Assembly: GCA_014879535.1 (NCBI GenBank)
Contig: JACSRX010000071.1
Location: 1-59,289 of the forward strand
DNA: 59,289 nt
Source: Chthoniobacterales bacterium
GTDB lineage: Bacteria > Verrucomicrobiota > Verrucomicrobiia > Chthoniobacterales > JACTMZ01
Direction of reading: 5' to 3'
Position numbers and translations under genes: made by a program. A model generated the notes under the pieces. That model had not been told where the DNA came from. It saw only the letters and a program-made list of their open reading frames with translations, and did not search any database. Shown piece after piece: positions 46,222-54,070 of the stretch (position 1 is its first letter; each line of letters begins with the position of its first letter).

Positions 46222-48468
46222 ATGTCACGCTCCTCGCGACGGCCAGCCGGCAGGAACCGCCGGGGACCCGGCGGCAAACCGGCCGCAAAACCCTCCCGCA
46301 GAAAGCCGCAGAAAACCGCGGCCCCGAAACGCAACGACCGCCCCGTGCCGGGCCCGGCCCTCGCGCCGCCCGGCGCGGCAAACCCGGAGCACGCCGCGCA
46401 GATCCTCGCGCTCGTCCGCAAACGCCGCCAATCCCCGCCCTCCATGCAGGAACTCGCCCGCGTCCTGCGCCTGCCCCCTCCGGCCCTGGCCCGTGCCCTG
46501 CACGACATGGAACTCGCCGGCGCCATCGTGCGCGTGCGTCAGGACCAGTTTGCGCTTCCCGAGGATGCCGATCTGGTCGTCGGAACCATCCAGCTCCACC
46601 GTGACGGCTCGGCCCACCTCCTGCGCGACCTGCCGGGGGAACAGGAATTCTACCTCAGCCCCGAAAACACCGCGACCGCCCTCCCGGGGGACCGCGTGGT
46701 CGCCCGGCACCTGCGCGATACCCCGCCGTTCCGCGGATACCAGCCTTGCGGGCGCGTCATCCGCATCCTCAAACGCGGCACCACCACGGCCGTCGGAACC
46801 CTGGAGAAATCCGCCCGCTTCTGGCACGTCGTCCCCGACGACAAGCATTTCGTCCACAACATCTACGTGCCCGCCCCGGCCCCTCCCCTGCACCCGAACC
46901 AGGGCGACAAGGTCGTCGTCAAACTCGGCGAGTGGAAATCCCGCCACGTCAGCCCCGAGGGCGAGATCGTCGAGGTGCTCGGACCCGCCGACAAACCCGG
47001 CATCGACATCGAGTCGATCATCCGCAAATACGACCTGCCCGTCCGCTTCCCGGACAATGTGCTCGCGGAGGCCCGGTCGTTCCCGGACACCGTCCCGCCC
47101 TCCGCCGCGCGCGGACGCCAGGACTGCCGCAACACGCTTGTGGTGACGATCGACCCGGACGACGCCAGGGATTTCGACGATGCGATCCATGTCGAGAAGA
47201 CACGCGACGGATGGAAGCTCACCGTCCACATCGCCGATGTCTCGCACTACGTCGTGCCCGGGACCCCGCTGGACATCGAGGCGCTCAAGCGCGGCAACAG
47301 CGTCTATCTCCCCGACCGCGTGATCCCCATGCTGCCCGAGGCCCTGAGCAACGGCCTGTGCAGCCTCCGCCCCGACGAGGACCGCCTCGCCTTCGCCGCA
47401 TTCATGGAAATTTCGCGGGACGGGAAAATCCGCAAGTCACGCTTCGCCAAGACCATCATCCGCAGCGCCAAGCGCCTCACCTACAAGCAGGCCTTCGCGC
47501 GCCTGCAGGCGAAGCCGTCCAACGCCGTGGACCACATGCTCCACGAGGCCTGGGCCATGGCGTCCGCGTTGCGCAAGAAACGTTTCGACGAGGGCTCGCT
47601 CGACCTCGACTTCCCGGAGGTCAAGGTGTGGCTGGATGACCAGGGACGCCCGGCGCGCCTGGAGCGGATCGAGAACGACATCTCCCACCAGCTCATCGAG
47701 GAATGCATGCTGGCCGCCAACGAGGCCGTCGCGCGCTTCTTCCGCCTCACCCCGGCCGCCGCCATCCACCGCGTCCATGAGAAGCCGGACCAGGCCAAGC
47801 TCGACGAATACCGCGAACGCGTGCAGATGCACGGACACAAGGTCGGCAACCTCGCCGTGCGCAAGGAATTGACGCGATTCCTGCGCCTCCTGCGCGGCAA
47901 GCCGGAGGAATACGCGCTCAAGACTGCGCTGCTCAAGAGCCTCAAGCGCGCCAGCTACTCGCCCGAGCCGGCCGGACACTACGGACTGGCCAAGAGCGAC
48001 TACACCCATTTCACCAGCCCGATCCGGCGCTACGCCGACCTTGTCGTCCACCGCGTGCTCTCCGACGTCTGCGGCTACACCAAGCCCAAGGGCCGCGTCC
48101 CCTTCGGCGAGATCGCCCGCCACATCTCCACCACCGAGCGCAATGCCGCCGAAGCCGAGCGCGAGGCCGTGCGGCTCAAGAAATTCGAGTTCTTCCGCCA
48201 GCAGCTTGCCAAAAAGACCGGCGCCACCTTCCGGGCGATCATCCTGGAGGTCCGCAACTTCGGAATGTTCATCGAGCTGCCCGACGTCATGGCCGGCGGC
48301 CTCATCCATGTGTCCGCCCTCGGCGGCGATTTCTTCAACTTCGACCAGGCAAGGCAGCGGTTTGTCGGACGCAAAACCCGCAAGACCTACCAAGCCGGCG
48401 ATGAACTGGAAGTCGTCGTCGCCCGCGTCGATCCCTTCAAGCAGCAACTCGACTTCGCCCCCGCCTGA
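46222..48468 (+). CDS. rnr: Ribonuclease R
   Basis: RNase R is a 3'-to-5' exoribonuclease able to degrade structured RNA. The 748-residue protein starts with a long basic disordered segment (RRPAGRNRRGPGGKPAAKPS), then a winged-helix region, cold-shock domains, and the RNB catalytic core with IDPDDARDFDDAIHVEKTRD (four metal-binding aspartates). HFTSPIRRYADLVVHR and a C-terminal S1 domain (AIILEVRNFGMFIELPDVMA) follow. ATG 46222 was chosen as the first codon free of the divergent gene. Repeats of the GGTAGGG family follow the stop. Confidence 0.95.
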   Translation: MSRSSRRPAGRNRRGPGGKPAAKPSRRKPQKTAAPKRNDRPVPGPALAPPGAANPEHAAQILALVRKRRQSPPSMQELARVLRLPPPALARALHDMELAGAIVRVRQDQFALPEDADLVVGTIQLHRDGSAHLLRDLPGEQEFYLSPENTATALPGDRVVARHLRDTPPFRGYQPCGRVIRILKRGTTTAVGTLEKSARFWHVVPDDKHFVHNIYVPAPAPPLHPNQGDKVVVKLGEWKSRHVSPEGEIVEVLGPADKPGIDIESIIRKYDLPVRFPDNVLAEARSFPDTVPPSAARGRQDCRNTLVVTIDPDDARDFDDAIHVEKTRDGWKLTVHIADVSHYVVPGTPLDIEALKRGNSVYLPDRVIPMLPEALSNGLCSLRPDEDRLAFAAFMEISRDGKIRKSRFAKTIIRSAKRLTYKQAFARLQAKPSNAVDHMLHEAWAMASALRKKRFDEGSLDLDFPEVKVWLDDQGRPARLERIENDISHQLIEECMLAANEAVARFFRLTPAAAIHRVHEKPDQAKLDEYRERVQMHGHKVGNLAVRKELTRFLRLLRGKPEEYALKTALLKSLKRASYSPEPAGHYGLAKSDYTHFTSPIRRYADLVVHRVLSDVCGYTKPKGRVPFGEIARHISTTERNAAEAEREAVRLKKFEFFRQQLAKKTGATFRAIILEVRNFGMFIELPDVMAGGLIHVSALGGDFFNFDQARQRFVGRKTRKTYQAGDELEVVVARVDPFKQQLDFAPA

Positions 48469-48546: not shown

Positions 48547-48583
48547 GGTAGGGCGGGATGTCCCCAGCCCGCCGGGAACATTG
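48547..48583 (+). repeat. Dispersed hairpin repeat, type A
   Basis: GGTAGGGCGGGATGTCCCCA then GCCCGCCGGGAACATTG. The stem arms are GGCGGG and CCCGCC, fully paired, with the same loop position as the 28608 copy. Confidence 0.8.
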
Positions 48584-48592
48584 CCTACCCCC

Positions 48593-48664
48593 GGTAGGGC
48601 CCGCTGGCCTCAGCGGGCCTCTGCCTTTCCACCGATCTGGACGGCTGAGCCAGCCGTCCCTACC
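48593..48664. repeat. Composite hairpin repeat, type B, bounded by GGTAGGG...CCCTACC
   Basis: It opens GGTAGGGCCCGCTGGCCTCA, then the GCGGG arm, then a link, then GGACGGCTGAGCCAGCCGTC, and ends CCCTACC. The terminal 7-bp inverted repeats and both internal hairpins are intact. It is the best-preserved copy in the window. Confidence 0.88.
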
Positions 48665-48680
48665 GGTTCATTCCCCAAAA

Positions 48681-48717
48681 GGTAGGGCGCGGCGTTCCCG
48701 ACGCGCCGTGAACCTAT
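48681..48717 (+). repeat. Dispersed hairpin repeat, type A
   Basis: GGTAGGGCGCGGCGTTCCCG then ACGCGCCGTGAACCTAT. The arms GGCGCG and CGCGCC pair fully. Three copies of the family lie in tandem between rnr and the next gene. Confidence 0.8.
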
Positions 48718-48726
48718 CCACCCCTC

Positions 48727-49662
48727 CTACCTGCGCCCCGGAAACGTCAGTTCCGCAATCCCGCTTTTGTCGAGATCGCCCAGACCTTCGGAGACCATCC
48801 GGTCATATTGCGCCTTGGTCGCCGCCGCGAGGGGAAGGTCGAGGCCCTGTTCCCGGGCCAGTGACAAGGCAATCCCGCTGTCCTTCGCCGCATGGGCGGC
48901 GGAGAAAAAGCAGGCATGGTCCCGCTTCACCATGTCCTCCCCGTCCGTGGCGAGCACACGCGAGTTGGCGCCGGTCTGCGAGAACACCTCCATCACCATC
49001 TCCAGGTCCAACCCGAGCGCGGAGGCCAACCCCAGCCCCTCGGCGAGTCCGGCCGTGTTGATGTTCATCACCATGTTGACGAGCGCCTTCAAGGCGGCGG
49101 CCTGTCCTGCCGGACCGATGTAGCGCAGCAATTTCCCCTCATCCGACAACGGCGCCAAGATGTCCCGCACCCGCTCGAACACCTCCCGGCGTCCACCGAT
49201 CATGAGATACAGCGTCCCCTGCAACGCCTGCGGGATACTCGATGCCATGCAAGCCTCCAGCGAATACGCGCCGACGCGTCCGCAGCGGGCCTCGATTTCC
49301 CGGTGAACGGACGGCGAAACTGTGGCGCAATTGATGAAAACCTTCCCCGCCGCTCCAGCCAACAGGGAATCCCCATCCTCCGCAAACACCGCAAGCTGGG
49401 CCGCATCATCGGTCACCACGGTAAAAATCACATCTGCAGACGCGGACACCTCCGCCAAAGTTTCCGGCGCCGCGCACCCGATCTCCGCCGCCAGCGCCTC
49501 AGCCCCGGCCCGATGGACATCAAAGACCGCCGCAATCCGGAATCCCTGCGCATGCAGCCGCCGCACCATGTTCGCCCCCATCCGCCCCACCCCGACAAAG
49601 GCAATGGACAGCTTCTCGGGCAACGGAGGAACCGGATCGGAAGAATGGGACGTCGGCATCAT
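48727..49662 (-). CDS. NAD(P)-dependent 3-hydroxyisobutyrate-dehydrogenase-family oxidoreductase
   Basis: The 311-residue protein has the NAD-binding AFVGVGRMGANMVRRLHAQG, the substrate motif INCATVSPSVHREIEARCGR, and the catalytic lysine region AAALKALVNMVMNINTAGLA (Lys in the conserved helix). It ends in the family's C-terminal helical domain. It probably reduces or oxidises a beta-hydroxyacid; the exact substrate is not evident. The start is one of two adjacent ATG codons at 49662 or 49659. Confidence 0.85.
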   Translation of the reverse strand: MMPTSHSSDPVPPLPEKLSIAFVGVGRMGANMVRRLHAQGFRIAAVFDVHRAGAEALAAEIGCAAPETLAEVSASADVIFTVVTDDAAQLAVFAEDGDSLLAGAAGKVFINCATVSPSVHREIEARCGRVGAYSLEACMASSIPQALQGTLYLMIGGRREVFERVRDILAPLSDEGKLLRYIGPAGQAAALKALVNMVMNINTAGLAEGLGLASALGLDLEMVMEVFSQTGANSRVLATDGEDMVKRDHACFFSAAHAAKDSGIALSLAREQGLDLPLAAATKAQYDRMVSEGLGDLDKSGIAELTFPGRR

Positions 49663-49729
49663 GCCCGACACCTTACAACGCTGCACCAGCTTTCACTACC
49701 CTATGCACCACGGCCCTATCCCCCGCCCG

Positions 49730-49807
49730 GGTAGGGCCGCACCTCCTTGGATCGCCGGAGTCCCGGCCCATGCGGGACGTAGGCGGCCGGGCCGGCCGGG
49801 AACATTT
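49730..49807. repeat. Hybrid dispersed repeat
   Basis: It starts GGTAGGGCCGC, contains a perfect hairpin GTCCCG...CGGGAC, and ends with the type A tail GGCCGGGAACATTT. It appears to mix type A and type B parts. It lies next to the toxin-antitoxin pair. Confidence 0.55.
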
Positions 49808-49809
49808 CC

Positions 49810-50172
49810 TCAGATCGGCAATACCCGCGCTTTTGTCTTGCCGGGAAGAATCGTGACGATCGCTCCCGCAAGCAACTCCTGCCGAAATTGAGTCAAGGCG
49901 GAGAGCAGAGTAGGACCGAGAACTTCCGGCGCAACATCCTCGACACGCGCCTGAATCACACTTGGTTTATGCGAGGCAGCATTGGCCAAGAGAGCACCGA
50001 AATCGAGATCATGCGTGAAGACGACAAACCCATGCGCCTTGGCATGCTCGAAAATGAGCCTGTCCTCCGCATCAGCCGCCCCGATGGAAAACCAATGAAC
50101 CGCGCTGACGCTATGACGGTTGAGGTAGCCAACCCATTCGGGGGTCAGGCATACGTCAACAAGCAACTTCAT
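49810..50172 (-). CDS. DUF5615 PIN-like toxin
   Basis: The 120-residue protein starts MKLLVDVCLTPEWVGYLNRH, with the first acidic residue of a PIN-like active site, and has VFTHDLDFGALLA with two further Asp. This is the DUF5615 family, thought to be RNases, usually paired with DUF433. Its ATG overlaps the DUF433 stop by 4 bases. The usual Asn/Asp in LVDxNLP is replaced by Cys (VDVCLTP), so its activity may be reduced. Confidence 0.75.
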   Translation of the reverse strand: MKLLVDVCLTPEWVGYLNRHSVSAVHWFSIGAADAEDRLIFEHAKAHGFVVFTHDLDFGALLANAASHKPSVIQARVEDVAPEVLGPTLLSALTQFRQELLAGAIVTILPGKTKARVLPI

Positions 50173-50393
50173 GCCGGCTGCAGATCAGCGTCGAAAGCTT
50201 CCGTGAGCCATGCAGCGTAAGAAAGCGCCGCAGAAATGTCCTCTTTCTCCAAATAGGGATACATTCGGAGAATTTCGGCCTCCGCATGACCCGCCGCAAC
50301 AAGACCCGTGATGGTTCCCACGGTGACACGGAGGCCGCGAATGCAGGGCTTGCCTCCCATGACCAATGGATTTCGGGTGATTCGCGGATGCAT
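50169..50393 (-). CDS. DUF433 antitoxin
   Basis: The 74-residue protein has the DUF433 signature ITRNPLVMGGKPCIRGLRVT followed by a helix-turn-helix-like AEAEILRMYPYLEKEDISAA. DUF433 proteins are antitoxins or DNA-binding regulators for DUF5615 toxins. It precedes the toxin gene and overlaps it, the normal order. The pair lies beside the attC-bounded cassettes but in the opposite direction. Confidence 0.8.
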   Translation of the reverse strand: MHPRITRNPLVMGGKPCIRGLRVTVGTITGLVAAGHAEAEILRMYPYLEKEDISAALSYAAWLTEAFDADLQPA

Positions 50394-50500
50394 GGATGCA
50401 CGTTATACCAGCAGAAATATGGGAGCAAGCGGTTGGGAAGGACCACTCCGTTCTGCCCCTCCCGCGACAGCATTCGACACCCCTCTCACTTCTTCGCCAC

Positions 50501-50532
50501 GGTAGGGCCGTGTGGCCTCACACGGCCGCACC
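50501..50532 (+). repeat. Dispersed hairpin repeat, type B short form
   Basis: GGTAGGGCCGTGTGGCCTCA then CACGGCCGCACC. The arms GGCCGTGTG and CACACGGCC pair around the conserved GCCT core, with different arm bases from the other type B copies. Confidence 0.75.
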
Positions 50533-50725
50533 CTCCCAAAACACTCGACGCACGCAATTCCGCATGGATAAATACCAGCCCGGTGCCATGAACCTCCAGA
50601 AATTCAGCGGCCACCCCATCCTCACACCCCTTCGCCACAGGTGCCGACTCATGGCACATCCTGAAACAAGGTGCTCTTATTGCATTGGACAACTCGTTGT
50701 TCAATTCCAATATTTTATACGGCTG

Positions 50726-50731
50726 TATAAT
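50726..50731 (+). promoter_or_regulatory. TATAAT -10 element upstream of the first cassette gene
   Basis: A consensus TATAAT lies 18 bases before ATG 50749 in a very AT-rich stretch. No good -35 box is seen at 16-18 bases. It could be the promoter that expresses the cassette array. Confidence 0.4.
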
Positions 50732-50735
50732 ATAC

Positions 50736-50742
50736 GTTCGGA
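50736..50742 (+). other. Left boundary of cassette array (attC/attI-like GTTCGGA)
   Basis: ACGTTCGGA lies just before the first cassette gene, as GACGTTCGCT and GACGTTCGCC lie just before the second and third. Only the G-TT core and flank are visible; no matching left half was found upstream. Confidence 0.45.
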
Positions 50743-50748
50743 AAAAAT

Positions 50749-51156
50749 ATGGTCCGATTAGCATACTCGCTGGCTCTCCTCACGCTTCTTTCAGGATGCG
50801 GCCTATTCGAAGTTTATGGGAAGCGTGAGCACGTCGTTGAGCGGTTCAAACTTGTGGACGAGAAGAGCGGGAAACCGATATCAGATGCTGATGTGACAAT
50901 CATGGCCACTCATGGACCACAAATTCTCCCCACAATTAACTTCGGAAGGCCGAGGAATGTTTCCGGAAGAACTGACCATCACGGAGAAGTGTTACTACGA
51001 ATCCCCCAAGGACCTAAGATCGAAAAATTAGCCTACGGCATCAAAGATAACGTTATTGTATTGCATCAATGGGAGATGCACTGGTCAAAGCCATCAGGAG
51101 ATACTACTATCTTGCTTGGCGACGCAGAGTCCACTTGGCAATATAGGAACAAATGA
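50749..51156 (+). CDS. Cassette 1: small lipoprotein
   Basis: The 135-residue protein has a lipoprotein signal (MVRLAYSLALLTLLSGC, Cys17) and a beta-rich body. Its FKLVDEKSGKPISDADVTIM followed by GRTDHHGEVLLRIP resembles carboxypeptidase-regulatory/Ig-like beta modules. It is much more AT-rich than the surrounding genome. Its stop is one base before the R box of an attC-like site (51158), the normal layout of an integron gene cassette. Function unknown. Confidence 0.65.
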   Translation: MVRLAYSLALLTLLSGCGLFEVYGKREHVVERFKLVDEKSGKPISDADVTIMATHGPQILPTINFGRPRNVSGRTDHHGEVLLRIPQGPKIEKLAYGIKDNVIVLHQWEMHWSKPSGDTTILLGDAESTWQYRNK

Positions 51157-51157
51157 A

Positions 51158-51271
51158 TCCGAACAGAGCGATGCACCGAACACCTACCCGCCGTCACGCC
51201 GAGTGCTTGGCGCTTCGCTCCCGGCACTCGTCGCGCCGTCGGTCCGGTGCCGGTGATCGCGGACGTTCGCT
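51158..51271 (+). other. attC-like recombination site 1
   Basis: The left half TCCGAAC-AGA-GCGATGCACC pairs with the right half GGTGATCGC-GGAC-GTTCGCT. CGAAC/GTTCG forms the R box, AGA against GTC the unpaired spacer, and GCGAT(G)CACC/GGTGATCGC the L box with one extrahelical G. A variable inner stem (CGAGTGC...GCACTCG) lies between. These are the defining features of an attC site, folded from one strand. Cleavage would be at G-TT in 51265-51271. Confidence 0.72.
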
Positions 51272-51277
51272 AAAGAT

Positions 51278-52093
51278 ATGACACTCCGAGTCCTCATCGC
51301 GCTTCTGATCATGACGGGCTATGTTTCCGCCAACTGCGGTCAGGCTTTCCATCTGTTGGATACGGAGATTAAAGCACTCGTAGCAAAAGCGTCCGATGGG
51401 GATGCCAATGCCGCGTATCGGATGTGGAATTTCCACTCGATGTCCAGCCAGAATGAACAAGAGGCCGACAAGTGGCTTAGAACGGCCGCACGCTTGGGTC
51501 ATCCCGAGGCTCAACGCTGGCTTGCATATGAGATCAAGGATTGCGACAAGCCACCTGGAACTTTTGGCAAGACACCAAGAGCAGCGGTAGAATCACTTTT
51601 GCGGTCTGCTTCCCGAACAAGTGGAACAGCTGCGGACGATCTTGGAGAAGCATACAGGGATGGCTACCTCAAGCCACGCGACCGCCTTGCGAAAGCAAGA
51701 CAAGCGTTTTTCCTCGCCGCCGAGCACCACAATGCCAGTTCATGGGAAAGCCTTGCTGAGATGCTTTTCAACGGAGAGGGCGGCTCCGCTGATCCGCTAC
51801 AAGCATACTACTTCATCGTTTTATCCACTCAATGTGTTCACCCAGACTCGATCACCGGAAAAGAACTGTGGGAACTAAGAATGAGAATTGAGAAGAAACT
51901 GAATATTGAGCAGATGGCAGCCGTCTGGGACAAGGCGGATGCTTATCTCAAAATCGAGCGCAAATATGACGCAGGCCGTATATACCCACCAGCATTGTTG
52001 GGAACTGGCATCCCAAAAAAAGAATGGGAAAAGCGATTGAAGGAGACTGACAAGAAAGAATCAGCGCATCGGCGCTCTCTGCAAACACAATAA
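51278..52093 (+). CDS. Cassette 2: secreted Sel1-like repeat protein
   Basis: The 271-residue protein has a signal peptide (LRVLIALLIMTGYVSANC). Sel1-like/TPR repeats follow, for example GDANAAYRMWNFHSMSSQNE, KWLRTAARLGHPEAQRWLAY and SSWESLAEMLFNGEGGSADP. Such repeats bind other proteins. It begins 6 bases after attC-like site 1 and its TAA abuts attC-like site 2. No obvious promoter of its own is present. Function unknown. Confidence 0.7.
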   Translation: MTLRVLIALLIMTGYVSANCGQAFHLLDTEIKALVAKASDGDANAAYRMWNFHSMSSQNEQEADKWLRTAARLGHPEAQRWLAYEIKDCDKPPGTFGKTPRAAVESLLRSASRTSGTAADDLGEAYRDGYLKPRDRLAKARQAFFLAAEHHNASSWESLAEMLFNGEGGSADPLQAYYFIVLSTQCVHPDSITGKELWELRMRIEKKLNIEQMAAVWDKADAYLKIERKYDAGRIYPPALLGTGIPKKEWEKRLKETDKKESAHRRSLQTQ

Positions 52094-52219
52094 AGCGAAC
52101 AGACCGATGGACCAAATCACCATCCCTTCGGGACTTCTGGCGTGCTTCCTGCTGATTCCGCTTCGCGGGCAGGAAGCACGTCAGAAGCAAGTGGTGATTG
52201 GTCATCGGGGACGTTCGCC
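52094..52219 (+). other. attC-like recombination site 2
   Basis: The left half AGCGAAC-AGA-CCGATGGACC pairs with the right half GGTCATCGG-GGAC-GTTCGCC. The R boxes GCGAAC/GTTCGC are perfect, the three-base spacer is mismatched, and the L box CGATG(G)ACC/GGTCATCG has one extrahelical G at the same place as in site 1. A long inner stem (GTGCTTCCTGC...GCAGGAAGCAC) is unlike site 1's inner stem, as expected for attC variable structures. Confidence 0.78.
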
Positions 52220-52225
52220 AAAAAG

Positions 52226-52777
52226 ATGAAAGCCGTCCTCATTGCAGCATTCTTGGCCTCGCCGGTCGTCGCTCAACAGTTTGGCGATGACAACCAGAGT
52301 GGAGACTGGCTTCCACTACCGGACGGTTATGTATGGCCAGTCCCTCTGAAGGACGCTCCAGATTTTGAGCCCACCACAAAGGCGTTCAAGGAACTTCCGA
52401 AGGAATTGAGGAAGGGGATCGAAGAGTATTGGCCAGATGATGCACTGCCTGATTCGGTTGAGCTTTTCGAGTGTGACTTGAACGGTGACGGCAAGAATGA
52501 GGTCTTCTTTGCAATTCGCGCTTATAGCGGCACCGGCGGCACATTCTATGAGATATTGACACCCGAAGGCGCATCCTATCGTGGCGTGGGCGGAATCCAA
52601 GGATGGGGATTCCTCTTCCACAAGCGAAAGAACGATTGGTATCAGATCGAGGGCATGAGCCGAGGCGGAGGTGGCAATTACACGCGCTATCTTCTCGCTT
52701 TCGACGGTAAGGAGTATCAGACCGTGAGGAACGAGGGACATGACTTCAACCGAGGCGAGGTCGAGATCAGAAAATGA
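52226..52777 (+). CDS. Cassette 3: secreted hypothetical protein
   Basis: The 183-residue protein has a signal peptide (MKAVLIAAFLASPVVAQQ) and a soluble body with FECDLNGDGKNEVFFAIRAY, a calcium-binding FG-GAP-like element. It ends with an aromatic-rich region (WYQIEGMSRGGGGNYTRYLL). It starts 6 bases after attC-like site 2 and ends one base before the R box of a truncated third site. Function unknown; similar small secreted proteins are common in cassette arrays. Confidence 0.65.
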   Translation: MKAVLIAAFLASPVVAQQFGDDNQSGDWLPLPDGYVWPVPLKDAPDFEPTTKAFKELPKELRKGIEEYWPDDALPDSVELFECDLNGDGKNEVFFAIRAYSGTGGTFYEILTPEGASYRGVGGIQGWGFLFHKRKNDWYQIEGMSRGGGGNYTRYLLAFDGKEYQTVRNEGHDFNRGEVEIRK

Positions 52778-52778
52778 A

Positions 52779-52832
52779 GGCGAACCAGGCAGTGGACTCA
52801 ACGACTACCCGCCGTCACCGACAGGCAACATA
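52779..52832 (+). other. Truncated attC-like site 3 (left half only)
   Basis: GGCGAAC is followed by CAG, GCAGTGGACT and GACTACCCGCCGTCACC, resembling the left half of site 1 (ACCTACCCGCCGTCAC is shared with small changes). No GTTCGCC right half follows; the next gene starts at 52833. The site seems to have lost its right half. Confidence 0.55.
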
Positions 52833-53069
52833 ATGATCACGGTGCGAACATTCAGCGACTCAGTTGAAGCTGGACTGGCCAAGTCCGTTCTCGACTCAGC
52901 TGGGATTGCATCATTCCTTCACGGTGAAAACACCTTTCAAACCGATGCCGGGATAGATCTCGTGCTGCAATTGCAAGTCCCCGAAGATCAAGCGGCGGAA
53001 GCGTTGCTTCTCCTAAACAGAGGCAACCCAAAAGGCGGGAGTGGTGGCATCGGCCACGCCAAAAGCTAA
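52833..53069 (+). CDS. Cassette 4: DUF2007-type small protein
   Basis: The 78-residue protein begins MITVRTFSDSVEAGLAKSVL, then DSAGIASFLHGENTFQ and DLVLQLQVPEDQAAEALLLL. This is the layout of DUF2007 (putative signal-transducing protein), which usually reads VYxAxxxxEAxLxxxLLExxGI. It follows a half-deleted attC site, so cassettes 3 and 4 may now be fused. No attC-like site is seen after its stop before the convergent SDR gene. Confidence 0.7.
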   Translation: MITVRTFSDSVEAGLAKSVLDSAGIASFLHGENTFQTDAGIDLVLQLQVPEDQAAEALLLLNRGNPKGGSGGIGHAKS

Positions 53070-53074
53070 CCCCT

Positions 53075-54070
53075 CTAAACCAACCCCTCCCGTCGGAACC
53101 AAGCCAGCGTTCGCGCCAGGGTGTCCTCGAAGTTCGCACTGCCGCGCCAGCCGGTGGCTTCTTCAAACGGCCGGGCGTCGAGCACCCAGCGGTTCGGCCA
53201 GATTTCGCGGGCGCGGTCGGGGGTGAGGGACGGCACGTTTTCGCCGATGGCAGGGATCACTTTCGAGGCGAGTGCCACCAAGCGCAGCGCCGCCTGCGGC
53301 ACCGGGAGGGCAAGGCCTTGGCGCTTGCTCACCCGCGCGGCGGTCTGCATGAGGTCCCGGTCGGTGATGGTGCCGGGGGATGTGACATTGGCGGTGAAGG
53401 GGGAAATTTCCGGACCGCGCTCGAACCATGCCTGGATGGCATCCACCAGGTCGTCCGAGGAAATCCAACTGAAGTGCTTCGACTTGAATCCCGGCTTGGG
53501 CCAGACGAACCCGCGGACCATGCGGAAGAGCGGGAGCGTGGCTTGGTCGCCCGGACCCAGCACCATGGGCGCGCGCAGGAGCAAAACCGGAAACTGCGGG
53601 GCCATTTCACGCACGGCTGATTCCATGCGGAGCTTGGATTCGCCATACCAAGAGATCGGACGGTCGCCGTCCCCGATCCGTCGGGCGGTCTGGCCCGCGG
53701 GCGTGGGTCCGCCGGCCGATTGGGAGGAAAGCAGGACGGTTTTCGGCGCGCCTTCCACGGTTTCGAGCAGGCGCAGGGTGCCGTCCACATTGACACGGAA
53801 GTATTCTTCGCGCGAGCGGCCGAACAGGACGCCGGCGCAATGCACGACGCGGTCCACCTTTCCCAAGGCGCGGAAATCCCAGTCCGGCGCAGTGGCCTCG
53901 AGGATGTTCAGCTTGGGTGGATTCACCACGCCCTCGCGGGCGAGCTGCGCGCGCAGCTTTTCCGCCGACCGCACCGGCGCGATGACCTCCCCGATGCGTC
54001 CGTCGCCAAGCGCACGGAGGACGAGGGTGCGTCCGATGAATCCCGTGGCTCCGGTGACAAGCAAGCGCAT
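53075..54070 (-). CDS. cerR: Extended SDR (NAD-dependent epimerase/dehydratase family), candidate ceramide reductase
   Basis: The 331-residue protein has the Rossmann motif LLVTGATGFIGRTLVLRALG, the VVHCAG motif, and the catalytic Ser and Tyr-x3-Lys in VLLSSQSAGG and SWYGESKLRMESA. Bacterial ceramide synthesis in Caulobacter uses an enzyme of this class (CerR) to reduce the 3-keto group. Here it lies downstream of serine-palmitoyltransferase-like and GNAT genes, which supports that role by context. Sequence alone would allow other epimerase functions. Confidence 0.7.
   Translation of the reverse strand: MRLLVTGATGFIGRTLVLRALGDGRIGEVIAPVRSAEKLRAQLAREGVVNPPKLNILEATAPDWDFRALGKVDRVVHCAGVLFGRSREEYFRVNVDGTLRLLETVEGAPKTVLLSSQSAGGPTPAGQTARRIGDGDRPISWYGESKLRMESAVREMAPQFPVLLLRAPMVLGPGDQATLPLFRMVRGFVWPKPGFKSKHFSWISSDDLVDAIQAWFERGPEISPFTANVTSPGTITDRDLMQTAARVSKRQGLALPVPQAALRLVALASKVIPAIGENVPSLTPDRAREIWPNRWVLDARPFEEATGWRGSANFEDTLARTLAWFRREGLV

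Follow-up and report, generated by a model that had tools for sequence, protein, structure and literature searches.

A chromosomal integron cassette array in a Chthoniobacterales bacterium that retains attI and has probably lost its integrase gene

The locus described here raises the question of how integron gene cassettes came to stand on a contig that carries no integrase gene. The sequence analyzed, hereafter the window, is contig C46 (59289 bases) of a draft genome of 3.17 Mb in 97 contigs. Between an RNase R gene (ending at 48468) and an epimerase gene (53075-54070, minus strand) lies a block of low GC content that holds four short plus-strand ORFs (Table 1). A previous reading of the letters alone (the sequence-only reading) had described these as AT-rich genes placed head-to-tail in an integron cassette array, with attC structures in the spaces after genes 1 and 2. 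The ORF coordinates bear out this arrangement, and the GC contents of genes 1 to 4 are 0.475, 0.513, 0.533 and 0.536, compared with 0.649 for both flanks.

Table 1. Features of the cassette locus, in window coordinates
Feature	Position	Strand	Remarks
attI site	50677-50738	+	crossover GTT at 50736-50738; 86, 79 and 76% identity to attI-like sites on C93, C83 and C38
Cassette 1 gene, 135 aa	50749-51156	+	lipoprotein-like N-terminus; weak DUF2606 match; start 7 bases past GTTCGG
attC 1	51158-51271	+ (cassette direction)	bottom strand is the recombining strand; fold z -4.3; 89.8 bits (model seed, partly circular); relatives on C1, C59 and C15
Cassette 2 gene, 271 aa	51278-52093	+	Sel1-like repeats; signal-peptide-like N-terminus
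attC 2	52094-52219	+	fold z -10.7; 101.7 bits (model seed, partly circular); relatives on C5 and C19
Cassette 3 gene, 183 aa	52226-52777	+	signal-peptide-like N-terminus; family match: none
Truncated attC 3, left half only	52779-52822	+	sequence shared with attC 1 and with C83 site a; 5.4 bits
Gene 4, 78 aa, DUF2007	52833-53069	+	PF09413 above cut-off; cassette status not demonstrated

The window also contains a DUF433/DUF5615 (PIN-like) gene pair on the minus strand (49810-50393), probably a toxin-antitoxin system, directly left of the attI site. The motif GGTAGGG occurs in 12 copies against 2.5 expected (for example, at 48547-48687 and 50501). Several copies sit in palindromic intergenic repeats, such as GGTAGGGCCGTGTGGCCTCACACGGCC, and similar letters come after both integrase (intI) genes of the genome.

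Each of the two spaces after genes 1 and 2 is a long imperfect palindrome, and the z values for folding of their bottom strands (Table 1) were obtained against dinucleotide shuffles. In both sites the R arms bear GTT/AAC and are followed by an unpaired spacer, by L arms that carry a single extrahelical G, and by a variable inner stem, as the sequence-only reading had proposed. Alignment of 14 attC sites of the genome shows compensatory changes in 16 of 22 pairs, with a covariation score of 0.488 that falls to 0.095 or less when the partner is slid. Genes 1-3 constitute one short ORF per cassette in a common orientation. Each starts at a fixed distance from the preceding box, previously given as 6 bases; this value is correct when counted from the 7-mer, and becomes 7 when counted from GTTNNN.

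A regex-type Python finder proved too insensitive and was replaced by a covariance model built in this analysis, which yields 25 attC matches in this genome at E values up to 0.1 and more in seven congeners, with zero sites in three congeners. The scores of attC 1 and attC 2 are partly circular, as both sites were seeds of the model; their blastn relatives elsewhere in the genome, on C5, C19, C1, C59 and C15, are independent of it. An Rfam scan of the window gave no match, and an exact-pattern search for GCGAACAG...GTTCGC returned counts at background because the boxes vary. Arrays that carry the same attC sites and are linked to an integrase exist in this genome, on C38. The window sites thus fold and align as attC, covary, belong to the 25-match family and separate short AT-rich genes, which confirms that the locus is an integron cassette array.

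All genomes are drafts, and contig breaks are frequent at attC or attI. Contigs end at such regions at L017:1-31, L018:1955-2016, L030:6871, L032:9268-9340 and L020:9390-9462, and one attI or attC half runs into different cassettes on different contigs (C38/C5; C1/C19). These differences past shared halves may stem from exchange of cassettes within the sampled population, or from an assembly broken at repeats. Genes for IS110-like transposases are inserted in cassette arrays at L020:8393-8971 (G000:C19) and at L031, about 5700-4570 on the minus strand (G000:C83); both inserts open with the identical letters ATTAGATGAGAAGGCAG right after an attC-like AACAAG, which suggests that the element targets attC sites. 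In congener G010, a block of three attC sites with identical scores and spacing is present on two contigs (C1:188637-190122 and C8:3787-5272; L073 and L074), and represents either a duplicated cassette block or strain variation.

The 62 bp preceding gene 1 are a full-length attI by homology (Table 1), and their crossover GTT begins at 50736, the very position at which the sequence-only reading had set the start of the array. The related attI on C38 adjoins a full-length integron integrase gene, and the opposite side of this attI is occupied by cassettes and attC sites; the window stretch matches this attI, and the window therefore carries an attI. The profile used to search for attI took in the window copy itself. 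The same order is found in the named MAG with the closest integrase (68%), where intI is followed by an attI ending in AATATACGTT and by 11 attC model matches on that side. The window attI is of the C93-like type, and both resident intact integrases adjoin the other attI type. Two short dyads were seen by eye in each attI type (window, C38, C83, C93, L087 and L069), with half-sites that vary between types and are complementary within a type; judged by eye, this is the pattern that would be expected for integrase-binding sites co-evolving with their own integrase. An attI pattern gave 11 exact matches in IMG/VR, which were rejected as chance because none is accompanied by attC and most apparently lie in coding sequence.

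A search with TIGR02249 found zero integrases on C46, in agreement with the sequence-only reading, and the intI next to attI that characterizes a complete integron is absent here. The term "integrase-less" fails for the genome as a whole, in which two integrases score above the curated cut-off, on C38 and C70. The C38 integrase is full-length (457 aa), and its best match among solved proteins is the V. cholerae integron integrase structure 2a3v. In this protein (L018:2019-3392), about 140 residues come before the segment (142-455) that aligns with the V. cholerae IntI structure, and this N-terminal extension can be aligned in part with many relatives from other phyla. The C70 gene is cut by the contig end; our guess is that its missing N-terminus may be found in the direction of C83, a contig that stops about 170 bp past an attI. 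Among named MAGs, those with the closest integrases comprise proteobacteria as well as Chthoniobacter and further Verrucomicrobia, and the earlier assignment of the DNA as Verrucomicrobiota-like is plausible rather than proven. Beside related attI sites, intI shows graded decay: 55 codons of its 5' end are kept on C93, 29 codons followed by a stop on C24, and none in the window, where no remnant was detectable left of attI (49500-50748).

The N-termini of the products of genes 1-3, judged by eye, resemble signal peptides or lipoboxes, and family matches are weak. These data support the earlier view that the three cassettes carry predicted secreted or lipoprotein-like products of unknown function. 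Searches of the cargo for defense-system and phage families gave nothing informative, and IMG/VR contains zero relatives of genes 2 and 3. Relatives of gene 3 were found only in four other genomes of the order, with none in the other members of the genus examined. AlphaFold models computed from single-sequence input reached a pLDDT of 38 for gene 1 and 57 for gene 3.

The distal end of the array is incomplete. The truncated attC 3 has CTACCCGCCGTCAC in common with attC 1, shares its R''-L'' start with site a of C83, and does not fold. The cut third site argues for decay, and the C15 array likewise ends with a truncated attC. Gene 4, which had been counted as an array member, has neither a GTT box upstream nor an attC downstream and is, therefore, no longer counted as a cassette.

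The same locus was compared in the congeners. In G005 about 100 bp separate the RNase R gene from the epimerase gene, and in G003 an unrelated gene lies between the two. By its own account, the sequence-only reading would have been contradicted by covariance scores at background level, by a lack of further sites, and by orthologues of its genes in the same order without the palindromes. None of these was observed: the attC scores lie far above background, many more attC sites occur in the genome, and the window's cassette genes are absent beside the epimerase in all 10 congeneric loci, so that these genes look like lineage-specific cassettes.

Copies of attI are dispersed in the genus. In G002, G003 and G004, further copies of the attI that belongs to the intact integron stand elsewhere in the genome with no integrase beside them, and G006, G007 and G010 also carry such copies. 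Many of these copies are 93-99% alike and stand at several loci that lack intI, and no congener exceeds one integrase match at the threshold applied. Some copies are accompanied by an intI remnant of 575 or 529 bp; others, at different loci, are clean attI of about 78 bp, and several of the good copies are followed by at least one attC. The stretch of about 78 bp may be a discrete mobile unit whose left edge is fixed, but homology between some copies, those of the topA locus and those of G010:C23/G006:C36, reaches beyond it, to about -170 and -142. Stronger constraint on the orphan attI than on neighboring DNA was tested and found no support, with orthologous copies in congeners not clearly better conserved than the adjoining non-coding DNA.

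One orphan attI is found at a shared position in G004, G006 and G010, where it follows topA and precedes an alkaline-phosphatase-like gene (both names were read off translations). G003 has in common with these genomes the sequence that immediately precedes attI as well as the downstream flank. The topA ORF ends 184-273 bp from the orphan attI, and no intI therefore fits there. The stretch from attI to the shared downstream flank showed no similarity from one species to another; it contains attC in G004 and G006, with nothing significant in G003 and G010. These sequences are most simply read as gain and loss of cassettes at this attI by an integrase that acts from another locus, although a longer ancestral array with different deletions could also account for them.

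We consider it probable that the window locus is a chromosomal integron platform that lost intI and now consists of attI, two intact cassettes and a third with a halved attC. The loss of intI is well supported; as no remnant is detectable left of the window attI, we infer the deletion from the relatives. The starting point would be a complete integron, which probably belonged to the lineage of the C93 attI and its intI remnant and from which intI was presumably deleted up to the attI edge, and the window attI may also have reached its place by another rearrangement. Cassette capture usually proceeds as a reaction of a single-stranded attC with attI, and the present cassettes would have entered by IntI recombination between the attC of a circular cassette, folded as the bottom strand, and attI. 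The third attC was probably halved by a deletion at the distal end of the array. Because attC 1 and attC 2 look intact, gene 2 together with attC 2 could still be excised by an IntI in trans. We infer such use of the array by integrases made elsewhere: the C38 and C70 enzymes could recombine intact attC sites, and possibly attI, and the window attI could still accept cassettes if one of them recognizes it. The cassette promoter often sits near attI, where gene 1 lies, and the first cassette would be expressed from this side. A promoter consensus scan found promoter-like sites no more numerous than in shuffles.

The integrases elsewhere in the genome also allow for a different origin, in which IntI acting in trans placed cassettes at a secondary genomic site and produced a cluster of attC sites without a true attI. 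Such off-target insertion is a proposed source of integrase-less clusters (PMC8618304), but the insertion point in the window is preceded by 62 bp of attI homology rather than by unrelated sequence with a bare GTT, and we regard this origin as very improbable. That the genes are ordinary ones separated by REP-like repeats or terminators, with no relation to integrons, has next to no probability. The window does contain other palindromic repeats, those with GGTAGGG, but the covarying attC layout and the ORF starts 7 bases past GTTNNN each time speak against this explanation, and the integrase-linked C38 arrays with the same sites refute it.

A functional rather than relic state of the locus deserves more weight. 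An attI may have been copied here without intI and be filled and emptied by integrases made elsewhere, as would fit the presence of several intI-less copies within single congener genomes, many followed by attC cassettes, the different DNA after the shared attI between topA and the alkaline phosphatase gene, and the two integrases available in trans in the window's genome. Against it stand the C93-like type of the window attI, which differs from the type beside the resident intact integrases, the cut last attC of the window, the significant attC in only two of four species at the topA locus, and the fact that a single long ancestral array, trimmed by different deletions, could likewise yield the differing content. 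We hold this account to be rather unlikely. Somewhat less doubtful, and put forward tentatively, is the broader proposal that the integron of this genus is multi-locus, consisting of scattered attI sites without intI that one or two integrases fill and empty in trans, with the window array as one satellite.

Clusters of attC sites that lack an integrase, termed CALIN in IntegronFinder (PMC9024848), are common (PMC8618304, PMC9024848). For their origin, off-target insertion, loss of intI and rearrangement have been put forward, and integrons have been recorded in Verrucomicrobiota (PMC8618304). The window resembles a CALIN in that it is chromosomal, has few cassettes of unknown function, holds at least two attC sites by our own covariance model and has no integrase nearby. 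The CALIN-type label given by the sequence-only reading holds to this extent, but it is incomplete: unlike a standard CALIN, the window array keeps a recognizable attI, which that reading had not seen, and it is therefore not simply an attC cluster. In the part of the Xanthomonas study considered here (PMC12444791), chromosomal integrons likewise show progressive intI loss, arrays at several conserved loci and possible mobilization in trans, but the surviving intI sits at one ancestral locus (ilvD), whereas here attI itself is multicopy away from intI. The Delta-attI-type cassettes of mobile class 1 and 2 integrons also place attI at unusual positions and are still recombined by IntI1; there, pieces of attI replace attC within an intI-bearing integron, whereas here a whole attI heads separate chromosomal arrays (PMC12901181). 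A limited search of the open-access literature, which is weak evidence, returned no description of genus-wide attI dispersed from intI with changing content at one locus.

Standard software detects attI only for class 1 integrons (PMC9024848), and arrays that still carry an attI of another kind are therefore counted as bare attC clusters. This suggests that CALIN counts mix two different things. A single genus shows graded intI decay beside preserved attI, together with several attI copies and at most one or two integrases per genome, and the origin of integrase-less arrays and their use in trans thereby become directly testable in this genus.
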